This document shows, piece by piece, positions 6,779-22,432 of a DNA stretch of 25,017 bases (its first letter is position 1; the number at the start of each line of letters is the position of its first letter). The position numbers and the translations under genes are program-made. Source of the stretch: a virus; the IMG/VR virus record IMGVR_UViG_3300046543_000176, positions 1 through 25,017 of that record. The stretch is one strand, 5' to 3'. Under the pieces are notes generated by a model, which was not told where the DNA came from, searched no databases, and saw nothing but the letters and a program-made list of their open reading frames with translations.

Positions 6779-9700
6779 CCGCCGGTCCCCGGGTACGGCC
6801 CCTCTGGGCTCGTGTACACGCTGTATCGGGCGGTCTGTTCTTGGGTCAACGCCTGAGCGACCTGCTGCCCGTTGATGTTGATGTACACGGGCGACGGCTG
6901 GATCGTGATGTACACCGGCATCGCCTTAGACAACAGACCCTTCAAGCGGTCGCCCGGCTGTGCGGGCGGGGGTGCAGCGGGAGGTCCAGACGGCGACCCG
7001 GGCTGCGCGGGCGGGGCGACCGGTTGGCCATTGTTCCCGGTCGTCGTGGACGCCCCGCCGCCGAACTTCCGGAACCCGACGAACCTGATCTTGCCGTCCG
7101 GCCCGACTTGGTACACGGGCTCGTCCTTGGGCGGTCCGGAGGAATCGAGCGTGGACTGGATGCGGTTGAAGGCGTCCATGATGTCCTGCGACGTCAGGTT
7201 CGTCCCGCGCGCCATCGCTTGCGCCGCTTCCATCGTCATTTGGTAGCCCTTGGGCAGTTTGGCCACGATCTTGTCGGCCTCTGTCGCGTGGGCTTGCATC
7301 GTCTGCCACGCCTTGGTAATCGCCGCCGCGCCCTTGCCCGTGATGCCCTCTAGGTTCTTCAACGCTGCCGCCGTCATCTTGAACCCGTCCGGCAGACCTG
7401 CGAGGATGGCCTTGAACCCGGACAGGATGCCCGACGCCGCCTTGTTCACCCCGGCGTTGAGTTGGCTGAACGCTTGCATGATCTGGTCCGCCGAGACTTT
7501 GGTCCCGTGCGCCAGAGCCTGTGCCGCTTCCGCCGTCATGTTGAAGTCTTTGGGCAACTGCTTGACGATGTTCGACGCCTCGGACATGTGCTCTTTTAGC
7601 GTCGTCCAAGCCTTGCCGATGCGATCCGCCGAAACGCCCGCGAGTTTGGCCATCTGCTCCATCGCGGACTTACTCATGTTGAACTTCTCAGGCAGCGACG
7701 ACAGGAGCGCGTCGATCCGCTGCTGGACGGTCATCCCGCCCCCGCCACTCGAACCCGCCCCGCCGGGAGCGGACGGGATTTTGAACCTCTTCGGGTTGAC
7801 GGGCGTGAACTGCGACGTCGACGTCGAACCGACGTCCGCCCCGGTGTACCCCGGCGTGTTGTGCAGGATTTTGTTGATCTGCTTGGTTGTCAGGGTATCC
7901 TTCGTGTCCCGGTTCGCCGCCGGAGCGGAGCCCGGCCCGGGGGCGGTCCCCGCCGGGTGGTTGATTGTGTCCCCGACACCGTTCCACGTCGGGTCGCCCG
8001 GGACCTGCGACTGGATCATCACCCGAATCTTTAGGTTCGCGAGGTCCTGCCCGATAGTGTTCGCAGCGTCAGTCCAGCCGCGCGAGATGGCGAGCGCCTG
8101 AGCCGCCGACAGGTCCGCGATCGCTTGCTGCGTCTGGTTCGCGTCGAGATGCCCGCCAGACAGGATCGCTGAACTCAGGTTGACCAGCGCGTCCGAACTC
8201 TGCTTGGCCCCAAACGTGTTGGTAACCAACGACTCCCAAATGCCCTGATTACCGAGCACCTGATTGAGGTTCGCGAGGTTGCCCAACGCCTGGGTCGCGG
8301 TCTGCTGCGCCGCCCCGTCCGCTTGCGCTTGGAGGCTCGTCTGTGCTTGGTCCCGGGTGTTCATGAAGTCGAACCCGGTCTTGACTGCCTCGCCCACCGC
8401 GACGATCGCGCCCCAAATCGGCCCGCCCATCATCACTGCCCCGGCGATGGTTGCCAGCGGCCCGGCGAACGACTGGACGTCGCCCATCTTCCCGCCGCCG
8501 AACATGCCCATCTGAGTTGCGAGCCCCCCGGCGATTAGCCCGCCGCCGAGCAGTTTCGTCAGCATACCGCCGCCGCCGAGCATGCCGAGCGGTCCGCCCC
8601 CGCCGACGCCGCCCTCTTGGACCGTGAACATCGGGTTCGCCGGGGAGCCACGCCCGAGCAGTCCGCCCATGAGCGATGCGCCCACTTGCCGCGCCATGCC
8701 TTGGAACACGTCCCCGGCCACCGACTCGATCGACACACCGAACAGGAACTTTACCGTCTTGTCGGCGACGAACCCCTTGACGAGCAGGTCACGGAGCCCC
8801 GCTGGAAGGCTGTTCCAGAAACCCATGATCGTGCTAGCGAGCCCTTGGATCGTAGGCAGCACTTCGTCTTTGAAGAACCCGACGGCGTTCTCGCCGAACG
8901 TCATAAGGTTGGCGACCCACTCGTGGATCATCGCCCGGTTCTGCGGGCTAGCGAACCACTGCGTCAGCCCCTGCGTGACCTTGGTCAACTCCGGGAGCAA
9001 CTGCGCGCCGACGGTCACCTTCAACGCTTCGAGCGTGGTGTTGAAGTCGCGCTGCGCCGCCGCGTTCTGTTGGGCGATGGCCACGAGGTCCTGCTGGCCC
9101 AAGCCTAGCCGCTGCGCCTCGTCCGCCGCGTCCCCCATGCCCTTCGATCCGGCTTGCAGCATGGGCAGGAGCGTCTGCCACTGCCGCCCGAGCAGCGCGG
9201 TCATCGCCGCGTCCTTCTGGATGGCCGGGATCGACCCGTCGTTCATGTAGTCGCCGAGCCGCTGCAACATCGATTGCTGGTCGAGCAGATGCCCGGTGCT
9301 GTCCGTGATCGACAACCCGTACTGGTCTTGGAACTTCTTGGCGTCCTGCATCGTCTTGCCGTGCGCCATCATGTTCTTTGCCAGCATGCCCAACACCTTG
9401 ACCGCCGAGCCCGTATCGACGTTGAAGTGCTGCATCGTCGCGAGTAACAACTGCGACTGCTGATTTGTCTGCCCTGTTACAGTGGCGATCTGGCCCGCCG
9501 TGATGCCGAACTGTTCCGCCGCGTCGATGCTGTCCTTGAACCCACGAAACACGGCATACGCGCCGCCCGCCAGACCCGCCAGACCCGCGACCCCGGCGAC
9601 CTGCCCGATCTGCGACCGTAGATGGGTGAGCGCGTTGCCAAACCCGGACGTCACCTTGGACGCGCTGAACATGCCCGAACTCGCCCGGGCGGTCTGGTTG

Positions 9701-18857: not shown

Positions 18858-20273
18858 TCAAGGCGTGAGCGCCATTCGCCGTATGCCGCCCGTGGCCTCC
18901 TTTTCGAGGACCGCTTGCACGTCGCGCGCCGCTTGGGTGTCCATGCCCGATGCCCACTCCGCGAAAGCCTCCGCCCATCGCTCGCTGAGTTTCGTAGCGC
19001 CATACCGCGTGGCGACCGAGACGCGATCCCCAAGGAACGTAAACCCGCCGTACGGATCGAGCCACCTGTCCATGACGTGGCCGTACTCGTGGACGAAGAT
19101 CGACTGCCGGGGAGTCAGCCCGGGCAGGTCAGAGTGCCATCCGCTGCGGACGTCCCGCGCCCACTGCGTCTCCAACTTGCTACCGCTGAACTTGCCGAAC
19201 CAGCCGTTGCCGAGCGTCATCCTCGATTGCGCCGTGGCACTGTACCCCCCGTTCACGTAGGCGTACGTGCCCTTGCCGACGACGTTCTGCGTCTCGACGT
19301 TGATGCTTTCCAGCGATGGCGGTTTGATGCCCATGTCGAACAGTTTCTGGTTGACCCCGTTCACCGCATCGACGATACCCTGCTGGTCGTCCACCTTCAT
19401 CCGGTCAAAGTTCAGGACCTGATTTGCGAGGTTGTCCAGCGATAGCGGCTCGTACACCGGGGCGGGCGGTGCCTCTTCGGGTGCTGGTTCGGGCGGTGCC
19501 TCTTCCGGCCCGGGTGCCTCGTCCGGCGTCACGCTGTCCGGGCTGTCAACCTCCGACGGATCAACGTCTTCGTCCGCCATCTCGTCGAACGACCGCCCAC
19601 AGTTCGGGTGCTCGATGCTGTTCGCGTCGGCGTCGTCCACCGTCCAAATCTGCCCGTCCGCCGCCGCGCACTCGTCGTCGTAGTCGGTCCCGTCGTGGAC
19701 CATGACATAGTGCGTGTCGTTCGCCCGGTACGCCGCGAGGTTGCCCGCATTCGCCGCGAGCGCAGACTCGGTCCGGGCAATCGTGTCGGCCCGGCCCTCG
19801 TACGTCTGCGTCACGTAGGCGGCGATGTCCGAGCGGAATGCCGCAGACGTGTACGTGTCGAACCCGGGACCGTCCACCGTCCGGGCGATAAACGAGTTCA
19901 GCCGGTCGCGTGTCGTGTCGTCGATCCCGGTAACCAGCGCCGCCCCCCGCGCCATGACGTAGTCGTACGCTTGCGGATTGGCCAGCGACCAAGCCTGGGA
20001 ACGGACGTCCGCCCGCTGCCACATCAAGCCGGTCTGAGCAAACGACGCCTTCTCGGCCTTCGGTCGCACCCGTCCTTGGAACGCCGCATCGAACACGGTG
20101 GCCAGTGCGTCCCGGAACTGCTCAAACCATGCGTCGTCGGCCCGTCCCCACACGTAGTCGAAGTGGCCCGAACTGTTGATCGCCGCTGCGAGGTCCTGAG
20201 CCTGTTGCCGGGCTCGTTGGGCTATGAGCGCTCGTAAAGCCCGGACGGATGAAGCCTTGACTCGACGAAAGGG
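18858..20273 (-). CDS. MuF-like head morphogenesis protein with C-terminal zincin-like domain (start uncertain; probably made by -1 frameshift)
   Basis: A minor head protein that works beside the portal during assembly and may be injected with DNA. Numbered from the Pro codon at 20273, the MuF core includes IARTE (165-169), HDG (193-195), DDECAAADGQIW (from 199) and HPNCGR (222-227), all hallmark residues. An acidic Pro/Glu-rich linker (230-275) leads to a second domain with HEYGH (395-399) and ERWAEAF (431-437), the layout of a zinc metallopeptidase with a third Glu ligand. The frame has no ATG, GTG or TTG between the GTG at 20426 (about 200 bases inside the portal) and the GTG at 20153 (already inside the protein). 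The coordinate given is the candidate slippage point. If shifted, the portal-MuF product would be about 1191 residues. Internal initiation at 20426 or 20486 is the alternative. Confidence 0.85.
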   Translation of the reverse strand, partial: PFRRVKASSVRALRALIAQRARQQAQDLAAAINSSGHFDYVWGRADDAWFEQFRDALATVFDAAFQGRVRPKAEKASFAQTGLMWQRADVRSQAWSLANPQAYDYVMARGAALVTGIDDTTRDRLNSFIARTVDGPGFDTYTSAAFRSDIAAYVTQTYEGRADTIARTESALAANAGNLAAYRANDTHYVMVHDGTDYDDECAAADGQIWTVDDADANSIEHPNCGRSFDEMADEDVDPSEVDSPDSVTPDEAPGPEEAPPEPAPEEAPPAPVYEPLSLDNLANQVLNFDRMKVDDQQGIVDAVNGVNQKLFDMGIKPPSLESINVETQNVVGKGTYAYVNGGYSATAQSRMTLGNGWFGKFSGSKLETQWARDVRSGWHSDLPGLTPRQSIFVHEYGHVMDRWLDPYGGFTFLGDRVSVATRYGATKLSERWAEAFAEWASGMDTQAARDVQAVLEKEATGGIRRMALTP

Positions 20274-22432
20274 ATGGCGGATGCACCCGCTTTCGCGAAC
20301 GCTTCCCGGACCTCTTCGGCGTTCGCGGCCTTGGCCAACTCGACACCGGGCAGGTCGAACTCCGACTCGAACCGGACGTCCGGCGACTTGCCCGCCCGCA
20401 GTGCCGCGAGCGACTTGCGCTGCCACTTGGCCAACTCGGTGTGAATCGCCTTGCGGTACTGCAACGACTGCATCTCGCGATCCCACGGCCCGGTCGCGTC
20501 GGCCACCTGCCCGATGTACGCCGGGATGAACTCCTTGCCCGCGTGTCGCGCCGCGAGCGAGCGATGCCAGCCGTCCGCGATCTTGTACTTGTTCGCCCCG
20601 GGGACTTGGACGAGCACGATCGGCACGACGAGGTCCGACTCGTCGATCTCGTCCTCGATCCTGTCCACGTTCTGCATGTCCCGCCCGCCCGGACGTCGTG
20701 CCATGTCAATCCCCGACAGTAGCACGTGTGGGTCGTAGCGCCACGCCGCGTCCTTGACCCAACCGAGCAACTCGGTGGGGTATTGCCGTTCGAGCGAGCG
20801 GAGGATGAGCCGATCGAGCCGCGCCTTGTTCACCTGCGACTGGCCCGGCATGGCACTCGGCCCGTCCGGTGTCGCGCTAGGCTTGCCCGCGTCGATCTGG
20901 GTCTGATCCTGCCCCCGGGGTTGAGCGTCGGGGGGGACGACCCCCGGAGGCAGGACCATGGGTGCGGGCGTCGGATTCGTGATCTCGGACACCGGTACGA
21001 CCGACTGGCCCGACACGACGGTTGGACCGAGCCCCGGAGGATCGATGTCGAGGATGTCTTCCGCGATGTAGTCGCTGGACATGACGCCCATCTGCCAATA
21101 CTGGAAAGCGCGCTGCGCCTGGGTGAGGCTGTCTTCGGCCTCTTCCATCTCCGGGAACCCGATCTCCAACTCGGGCTGCTTCAACGGCCCGGCGATGATC
21201 TTGTTGAGCACACCCTCCACGTGACGCACGAGCGCCTCGTTCCGCTCGTCGGACGTCTTGGCTTGGTTGTCGGCGAAGCCCTTCCCGCCGAGTCCGGACG
21301 ACTTGATCGTGAACCCGAGTTCCATCGGGCTGACGCCGTACGCGCCACACGCGACCATCATCAACCACTCTTCGACTTCGGGCTTGGGCTCGGGGTTGAT
21401 CTGCATGAGTTGCGAGCCCTGCCCGCCCGGGACGAACCGGAGCGACTGCCGCTGTGCGTCGTTACCCGCGAGGATACCGTCGAACACCTTCTGCAACTCG
21501 GCGATCTGCTGGTTGCCCCACGACTCCGGGACCGCATACAGCGTGGACGCCGGGATAGACCCGTCGGTGAAGTACGCCATGTCGAGCGTCTGTCGGCGGA
21601 GCGCCCGGTTCGTCGCGAGCAGGATACGCTCTGTCGGCGGGTGTCCGTAGGGCGAGCCAGCGTACGTCCAGAACGGGTCATACGACATCTGCGTGGTGGA
21701 GAACGCGGTGTTGTTGTCCGCCGTGACGAGCCGCTGGAAGAACGTCCACGGCATGCCCTTGATGATCTGCCGGTACGCGGCCATCGGCGGTTGCGGGATG
21801 CGCCCCCACAGGTCGATCAGCGGGAGGATCGTCGTGCCGTCGATGACTTCGACACCGTACAGGTCGCCGCCCTTGGTGAAGCGCAGATACAGCGTCGGCG
21901 TGTCGTACATAAACACTTGGTCAAGGTAGGCGTAAATCCACGAGCCCCACTGCCGCTCCTGATCCGGGGACTCGAAGAAACCGGTCAACTTGTTCGCGGG
22001 TTCGGCCAGTCGCTCTTGCCGGGTCAGACGGTCTGCGCGCTTCTCACCCTCGACCTTGCGCGGGCGGATGACCCACTCCAAGCGGCGAAAGTCGTCGATC
22101 CGCTTCTCCCGGGCGAGATTGGCTACATCGTAGTTGCGGCCCAACGCGTCGAGTGTGGCGAACGTGATGGGCTCGTAGCCCCGGGGACGGGTTTGGACAT
22201 TGTACCCGACGGGGTAGTCCCACCGCCGGGGCTCGACCTCTTCCGGGTGCTGTGGTCCGATGGGCAGTCCGGGACCAAGCGACGACACGACGTTCGGCCC
22301 GCCGAGCGCCGCCGTCAGTTCGGACAGGTCGGTAACCCGCGCCGCCTCCCCGAACCCGCCCGGCATAAGTGCGCCGGGCGGAGCAAACGACGACGGGGCG
22401 AGCGCCTTAGCGAGCCTCTCCCGGACTCCCAC
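20222..22432 (-). CDS. Portal protein with C-terminal ParB/Srx-like module
   Basis: Forms the dodecameric ring at the head vertex through which DNA passes and to which tail connectors attach. The 736 residues are longer than a typical 400-550-residue portal. The portal core is about residues 85-470: a DNA-contacting first half, then a segment around 290-350 (DGSIPASTLY, RFVPGGQG), then EWLMMVACGAYGVSPMELG at 355-373, the characteristic 'r..vA..fgvPp.llg' helix. A Pro/Gly/Gln-rich linker (484-534) leads to a second domain at about 560-645 containing PIVLVQV and KYKIADGWHRSLAA, the pattern of ParB/sulfiredoxin-fold GxHR domains. A basic helical tail ends in SGLYERS. The start is GTG at 22432, abutting the upstream stop. 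A CCCTTTC heptamer in this frame at 20273-20267 may shift some ribosomes into the MuF frame. Confidence 0.93.
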   Translation of the reverse strand: MGVRERLAKALAPSSFAPPGALMPGGFGEAARVTDLSELTAALGGPNVVSSLGPGLPIGPQHPEEVEPRRWDYPVGYNVQTRPRGYEPITFATLDALGRNYDVANLAREKRIDDFRRLEWVIRPRKVEGEKRADRLTRQERLAEPANKLTGFFESPDQERQWGSWIYAYLDQVFMYDTPTLYLRFTKGGDLYGVEVIDGTTILPLIDLWGRIPQPPMAAYRQIIKGMPWTFFQRLVTADNNTAFSTTQMSYDPFWTYAGSPYGHPPTERILLATNRALRRQTLDMAYFTDGSIPASTLYAVPESWGNQQIAELQKVFDGILAGNDAQRQSLRFVPGGQGSQLMQINPEPKPEVEEWLMMVACGAYGVSPMELGFTIKSSGLGGKGFADNQAKTSDERNEALVRHVEGVLNKIIAGPLKQPELEIGFPEMEEAEDSLTQAQRAFQYWQMGVMSSDYIAEDILDIDPPGLGPTVVSGQSVVPVSEITNPTPAPMVLPPGVVPPDAQPRGQDQTQIDAGKPSATPDGPSAMPGQSQVNKARLDRLILRSLERQYPTELLGWVKDAAWRYDPHVLLSGIDMARRPGGRDMQNVDRIEDEIDESDLVVPIVLVQVPGANKYKIADGWHRSLAARHAGKEFIPAYIGQVADATGPWDREMQSLQYRKAIHTELAKWQRKSLAALRAGKSPDVRFESEFDLPGVELAKAANAEEVREAFAKAGASAIPFVESRLHPSGLYERS
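20267..20273 (-). promoter_or_regulatory. Candidate -1 ribosomal slippery heptamer CCCTTTC (portal to MuF)
   Basis: In the portal frame the bases read C CCT TTC, a perfect X XXY YYZ heptamer. Slipping back one base gives CCC TTT and enters the MuF frame, which is exactly the -1 frame. The portal stop (20222-20224) comes 42 bases later, so unshifted ribosomes end there. A 7-bp stem, CCGGGCT (20244-20238) with AGCCCGG (20214-20208), lies 22 bases downstream, farther than the usual 5-9. Heptamers of this kind occur by chance, so the main support is that MuF otherwise lacks a sensible start. Confidence 0.45.

Follow-up and report, generated by a model that had tools for sequence, protein, structure and literature searches.

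A probable -1 frameshift signal at the portal–MuF junction of a tailed phage and its relatives

The portal of a tailed phage is its DNA channel and is commonly regarded as 12 identical chains arranged in a ring. We analysed the junction between the portal and MuF genes in the IMG/VR virus record IMGVR_UViG_3300046543_000176, whose 25,017 bases are here called the window and in which both genes lie on the minus strand. The cellular polymerase gene dnaX (tau/gamma) has a Shine–Dalgarno (SD)-like sequence upstream of its slippery site, as do members of the portal–MuF group described below. In the in-frame portal–MuF fusions of that group a -1 shift would lead to early termination and a shorter product, which resembles the dnaX outcome (PMC4066793), whereas the opposite wiring is additionally found among the phage relatives. 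The lambda tail assembly chaperones gpG/gpGT offer a second likeness, a -1 slip near the 3' end of a structural-module gene appending a second domain at a set ratio, but they involve other genes and another stage (the tail rather than the portal vertex), and according to a passage in PMC5009743 mature virions contain neither gpG nor gpGT, whereas the portal is part of the virion. In T7 10A/10B and Privateer a minor extended virion structural protein also arises through frameshifting (PMC7881722), but from the major capsid protein rather than the portal and with no MuF domain. Both domains occur in one chain in the in-frame fusions of Microbacterium phage clusters EA (in part) and EB (PMC7302621) and of phage Sonali (record annotation), although the passages on the two clusters describe gene fusions and propose no recoding, and SPP1 gp6 and gp7 are encoded by separate genes and bind non-covalently. 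VIP2 and MuF-like genes are listed among predictions of PRFect counted as false positives, with the remark that they occur as a single fusion gene (PMC10885494). No report of portal–MuF recoding was found in the literature searched, which leaves out most subscription journals.

It is in our judgement very likely, from the arrangement of the sequences, that ribosomal -1 recoding at the portal–MuF junction makes both a portal and a portal–MuF protein from one mRNA, and that the window holds one case of a recurring site. The window portal has a core match of the PHROG 2662 type (Table 1), and the MuF frame stands in the -1 relation to it, so the gene pair is not an in-frame fusion. Near the end of the portal frame the heptamer CCCTTTC, which the original prediction had proposed as the slippery site, reads C CCT TTC on the minus strand and matches the X_XXZ_ZZN pattern in the phase of frame 0. 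Past it the -1 frame is open for 469 codons with matches to MuF, and the predicted portal–MuF product comes to 1191 residues, the length originally estimated. A six-frame search with PHROG 2662 placed the MuF half at 19617-20267 (E 3e-11), the first codon matched being the one that immediately follows the slip. The profile is one for portals, and its C-terminal part (profile positions 474-683) also matches the window MuF frame (E 2e-8), so that its family members include natural portal–MuF fusions. The MuF frame also matched PHROG 2468 (E 8e-13) and fell just below the curated cut-off of PF04233 (27.5 bits against 29.6; E 5e-6), with no match to it in the phage collection.

The MuF frame is free of ATG, GTG and TTG from -202 to +71 relative to the portal stop, in line with the earlier claim that nothing usable lies near the portal end. 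The start codons nearest the junction are GTG at 20486 (originally given as ATG), GTG at 20426 and then GTG at 20153, the last two as predicted, and CTG is present solely at -346 and +119 of the portal stop in the range examined, up to +150. Five other IMG/VR contigs covering the junction (L002, L003, L004/L061, L005, L006), all >99.9% identical to the window, have it unchanged, and an assembly error was rejected for this reason; being near-identical, these contigs are uninformative on evolution.

Loci related to the window were found by portal-relative searches and then classed by the frames of portal and MuF. Two of the scans kept the best 80 of 564 and the best 80 of 589 relatives, and the samples are therefore those nearest the queries. 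After deduplication on the last 150 residues of the portal frame, 14 loci were classed as -1-related splits, the window being represented by its copy L002; L256, found after the classification, was added by hand, giving 15. An in-phase heptamer was present in 12 of these 15: C CCT TTC in the window, G GGA AAA in seven (L033, L041, L042, L044, L046, L076, L077), A AAA AAG in L249, A runs in L111 and L112 (99% identical to each other) and C CCA AAA in L256. A thirteenth split with a heptamer, the A run of L147, was left out of the count because its heptamer was what drew attention to it. What is conserved in the splits is position and phase, C CCT TTC itself being found as a split only in the near-identical copies of the window. 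None of the five splits in the +1 relation (L060, L178, L098, L118, L153), for which a -1 slip would serve no purpose, had an in-phase heptamer. End heptamers showed no excess in portals without MuF found nearby (13 of 76, 18.4 expected), and were present in three of the four portals with MuF further away (0.95 expected). At L098 (3463-3803), the +1-related portal and MuF have neither a start codon (-60 to +45) nor a -1 heptamer between them, for which +1 slippage and a sequence error are candidate explanations.

At the seven deduplicated loci with G GGA AAA, where portal identity from one locus to another is 48-86%, the heptamer stands in phase 49-61 nt ahead of the portal stop. Four of them have no ATG, GTG or TTG from -60 to +45 of the portal stop; in the other three the starts are TTG at -1 and ATG at +17 (L033), ATG at +29 (L041) and GTG at +29 (L077). 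In all seven, the first MuF residues (LDPER in L042 and L044, with variants, LDSGR or LARDR for example, in the others), like the IDRER of the fused relatives, are encoded in the MuF frame upstream of the portal stop, so that an ordinary start at the stop would remove them. Among the remaining splits, L249 has GTG at +29, L111 and L112 have GTG at the stop and ATG at +14, and the first start in L256 is TTG at +47. The three -1 splits without a heptamer (L039, L047, L166) each have a start codon, ATG or TTG, at the portal stop.

In-frame fused relatives were examined separately. The first set held 29 fusions, 23 of which could be anchored at the MuF start, and the tested stretch was the 33 codons ending at MuF codon 5, with expectations taken from synonymous shuffles that used each gene's own codon usage. 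An in-phase heptamer of any type was found in 17 of 23 fusions (6.6-6.7 expected), with no excess at nine other positions along the genes. The stretch had been fixed after viewing the split relatives and the relatives' junctions, and a further 49 fusions, 35 of them new anchored loci, served as a replicate in which profile and stretch were left unchanged: 26 of 35 had a heptamer (6.8 expected; P 7e-14), again with no excess at eight other positions. Over both sets, heptamers whose aminoacyl-site (A-site) codon is AAA, AAG, TTT or TTC were present in 42 of 58 fusions compared to 6.9 expected. Eleven portals running off their contig and 20 fusions with a late-beginning MuF match had been dropped before these counts of 58 genes, whereas near-identical genes such as L189/L191/L195 were kept. 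With one fusion per 60%-identity cluster the figure was 36 of 46 for any heptamer (11.1 expected); clustering at 50% identity left 10 clusters (6.8 against 2.0; median P 5e-4), and at 45% identity the two clusters left gave no significant result. The 20 fusions treated apart, which lacked an anchor, had a linker heptamer of the same kind in 10 cases (1.8 expected); the C CCA AAA of L177 is absent from this count because the stretch ended 14 codons early, and it was seen in the same contig as L258. A search of Escherichia coli genomes returned no match to L195. The Arthrobacter phages Sonali and Mufasa8 (L068, L070) have portal–MuF fusions with C CCA AAA before MuF and nine-codon -1 tails in both, and the Sonali fusion has a NUDIX domain between portal and MuF.

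The -1 frame of the 42 heptamer-bearing fusions terminates after 0-53 codons, and a shift there would thus yield a portal without MuF. The motif AGGAG or GGAGG lay 6-26 nt upstream in 19 of the 42 (8.7 expected), pattern and range having been picked after looking, and downstream folding was slightly stronger than in synonymous shuffles, a weak effect (mean z -0.66). Heptamers in which X differs from Z were enriched in the slippery phase (21 against 8.0 expected), with 9 against 7.3 and 4 against 3.3 in the other phases, whereas homopolymer heptamers (A runs with a single exception) were in excess in all three phases and may operate by transcriptional slippage. For the A-run members of the group, the window not being one of them, transcriptional slippage instead of ribosomal frameshifting is a real if doubtful alternative, in keeping with the three-phase excess and with the runs of 9-10 A seen in 13 of 58 fusions; it does not account for C CCT TTC, C CCA AAA and G GGA AAA, for which the enrichment is confined to the slippery phase.

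Two pairs of relatives differ in wiring and share the slippery site. The portals of L011 (fused, A AAA AAA) and L249 (split, A AAA AAG) are 71% identical with closely similar bases at the junction, and the frame relation is altered while the slippery site is retained. L258 (fused, in the same contig as L177) and L256 (split) both have C CCA AAA, and the -1 frame of L256, PGWERDRQLAAQYAGRLARELQ, is similar to the in-frame PAWDHDQVLAAEFARQLARGLQ of L258. The C-terminal part of the window portal contains a ParB-like segment (Table 1), and a similar segment is found in L060, L177/L258, L178 and L256, so that the closest architecture to that of the window holds both recoding and ordinary starts. 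The support for a frameshift in the window comes from the likeness of its arrangement to that of related phages, whose in-phase heptamers favour the join of portal and MuF that had been predicted. The original prediction had regarded a fusion made by frameshifting as unusual; these data suggest instead that it recurs in the group, also with the opposite wiring in in-frame fusions.

In the mechanism we propose, most ribosomes on the portal mRNA would reach the portal stop and make portal protein, and a minority would slip back one base at C CCT TTC (Pro CCU to CCC, Phe UUC to UUU), bypass the portal stop in the -1 frame and produce a single portal–MuF chain. In split genes the slip would add MuF and in in-frame fusions it would drop MuF through early termination, either wiring giving the same two proteins. 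Low-level slippage in split genes would set the ratio of the two through covalent linkage, and in fused genes the ratio of portal forms would depend on the frequency of slippage. Portal rings are dodecamers, and assembly from such a mixed pool of subunits could give rings carrying a few MuF domains. We regard as likely, with slightly less assurance than recoding at the junction itself, a conserved two-way recoding switch, its wirings swapped by small insertions or deletions (indels) with the slippery site kept, that sets in a broad group of tailed phages the share of ring subunits bearing MuF.

Taken by itself the window is suggestive and not decisive. Its 12 genes contain 18 in-phase heptamers of any kind in 6367 codons, and only two with an AAA, AAG, TTT or TTC A-site codon, the one at the junction and another at 8824. 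Sharma et al. (2014; PMC4066793) count C_CC.U_UU.C with the motifs found to "exhibit high level frameshifting" in E. coli, and the same paper names a proven frameshift case that has no established stimulator. Dropping the 15 residues between the heptamer and the portal stop lowered the PHROG 2468 score by 4.7 bits. The portal frame ceases to be codon-typical at about the heptamer.

Several observations weigh against recoding, in the window or in the group. Given the local protein sequence, 5% of synonymous shuffles place a heptamer of this type within the final 21 codons of the portal, and the window has no SD-like or structural stimulator beyond chance: AGGAG and GGAGG are absent from the 26 nt upstream of its heptamer, and downstream folding was no stronger than in shuffles over stretches of 40-80 nt (z +0.93 to -0.7), 100-120 nt (z -0.4 to +1.5) and 131 nt (z -1.2). 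The 7-bp stem originally noted 22 bases downstream does exist and is likewise not stronger than in shuffles. The MuF frame becomes codon-typical only from near the portal stop, and the 14-codon overlap has poor codon usage in both frames, below all seven G GGA AAA relatives; since codon usage shifts at two different places, it neither proves nor refutes a switch of frame. Removal of the same 15 residues cost PHROG 2662 only 0.2 bits. A five-sequence profile of the PF(D/E)R type missed the window junction, its best stretch lying elsewhere in the protein at 5.5 bits (a score attained by 30 of 3000 shuffled junctions in the control), and a profile built from four ParB-type MuF domains gave no significant match, 191 of 200 shuffled N-termini scoring at least as high as the window. 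Among the relatives, 16 of the 58 anchored and 10 of the 20 unanchored fusions had no such heptamer in their stretch, and four-base SD-like patterns were weaker than the five-base ones (17 of 42 against 10.8 expected at 6-17 nt; 25 of 42 against 21.0 at 6-26 nt). The ParB-type relatives L060 and L178 have ordinary starts. The original prediction looked for a heptamer kept in phase in relatives whose MuF lacks a start; such a heptamer was found at the seven G GGA AAA loci, L249, L111/L112, L256 and L147, but in four of these (L033, L111, L112 and L147) a TTG or GTG at the portal stop could serve as an ordinary start.

A strong downstream stem or pseudoknot in the window was not supported by folding (performed without pseudoknot modelling), and an Rfam search of 19900-20600 returned no match. 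Homology of the window Pro-Phe site with the PxPF(D/E)R sites of L096, L110, L225, L241 and L047 is not claimed. An AlphaFold model of the MuF frame made without an alignment had a mean pLDDT (predicted local distance difference test) of 37 and was not used.

It is unlikely that ribosomes finishing the portal re-initiate at a non-standard codon, for example the ATA that overlaps the portal stop (ctcATAGcc), and in this way make MuF as a separate protein. Split relatives do start at the portal stop (L039 ATGA, L166 TTGA, L047 TAATG, L178 ATG, L060 GTG), and the good MuF codon usage of the window begins only near that position, but these relatives use ATG, GTG or TTG and the window has none of them there. 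ATA start codons are very rare. Re-initiation would also make the in-phase heptamer a coincidence of the 5% kind and leave the pattern in the relatives unaccounted for. Less probable still is a recent one-base indel that split an in-frame fusion, with MuF lost or made by chance slippage and no programmed signal; fused relatives exist and the junctions of L011 and L249 appear by eye to be one base apart at the slippery run, whereas the identical junction in five other contigs, a MuF frame still open for 469 codons and the recurrence of split lineages with in-phase heptamers speak against it. A late MuF start at GTG 20153 with the first helix missing is the least probable of all, for although PHROG 2662 scores such a MuF no lower (32.1 against 31.8 bits), PHROG 2468 drops by 7.9 bits, no SD-like sequence lies in the 15 nt ahead of this codon and about 70 nt of open MuF frame past the portal stop would go unused. 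The CCCTTTC of the window is probably one example of a slippage signal at the portal–MuF junction.

Table 1. Coordinates of features in the window (position 1 is the first base).
Feature	Position	Strand	Details
Portal protein gene, 0-frame product	20222..22432	(-)	Open reading frame, GTG start, TAG stop, 736 amino acids; PHROG 2662 portal match, residues 65-476, E 2e-30
Slippery heptamer C CCT TTC	20267..20273	(-)	In phase with portal frame; first base 49 nt ahead of portal stop
Two-frame overlap	20222..20266	(-)	Would encode portal tail in frame 0 and first MuF residues in frame -1
MuF frame predicted to be entered after -1 shift	18858..20267	(-)	469 codons and stop; PHROG 2662 MuF half, PF04233
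Phage_Mu_F core match	19599..19808	(-)	Pfam search
ParB-like domain in portal C-terminal part	20495..20674	(-)	Residues about 587-646; PF02195 E 4e-4 and 8e-5, below curated cut-off
Possible downstream stem CCGGGCT/AGCCCGG, 7 bp	20208..20244	(-)	20244-20238 with 20214-20208; 22 nt past heptamer; stimulator role not supported
HEYGH motif, MuF C-terminal extension	19077..19091	(-)	Sequence

Other features of the window and its relatives were noted. The HEYGH motif in the C-terminal extension of MuF is followed by further Glu residues, an arrangement we take to be like a zinc metallopeptidase motif; PHROG 7153 "zinc-finger protease" was matched at no better than E 0.02, with no match in Pfam, and MuF may carry this region as a domain. 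In the stretch that separates the major tail protein gene of the window from its tape measure gene, a frame of about 100 codons could be shifted into that at 10031-9786 by an in-phase C CCA AAC (10121-10115, minus strand), a candidate site in this phage for a G/GT frameshift of the tail assembly chaperones. Judged by eye, the portal genes of L060 and L047 and the MuF gene of L060 contain long insertions whose ends are intein-like (L060 2434-8548; L047 3500-6292). Two further portals contain an A AAA AAA/AAG run whose -1 frame leads into a domain other than MuF, an ADP-ribosyltransferase-like domain in L099 (5272-6048; PF03496, E 2e-16) and an inorganic-pyrophosphatase-like InPase domain in L169 (5359-6534; PF18823, E 9e-23). 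Both are candidate recoded portal extensions, and the same recoding may append such other cargo to the portal.

The junction signal may determine the make-up of the portal ring through which phage DNA passes. If two portal forms are made from one mRNA, mixed rings are implied, and slippage would provide a simple means of fixing the number of MuF domains, or of MuF-linked cargo, per head. Many annotated portal–MuF "fusions" would then conceal an additional product of shorter length, and the annotation of split MuF frames that lack a start codon would be wrong. The swaps of wiring between relatives that have kept the slippery site offer a rare view of the evolution of recoding.

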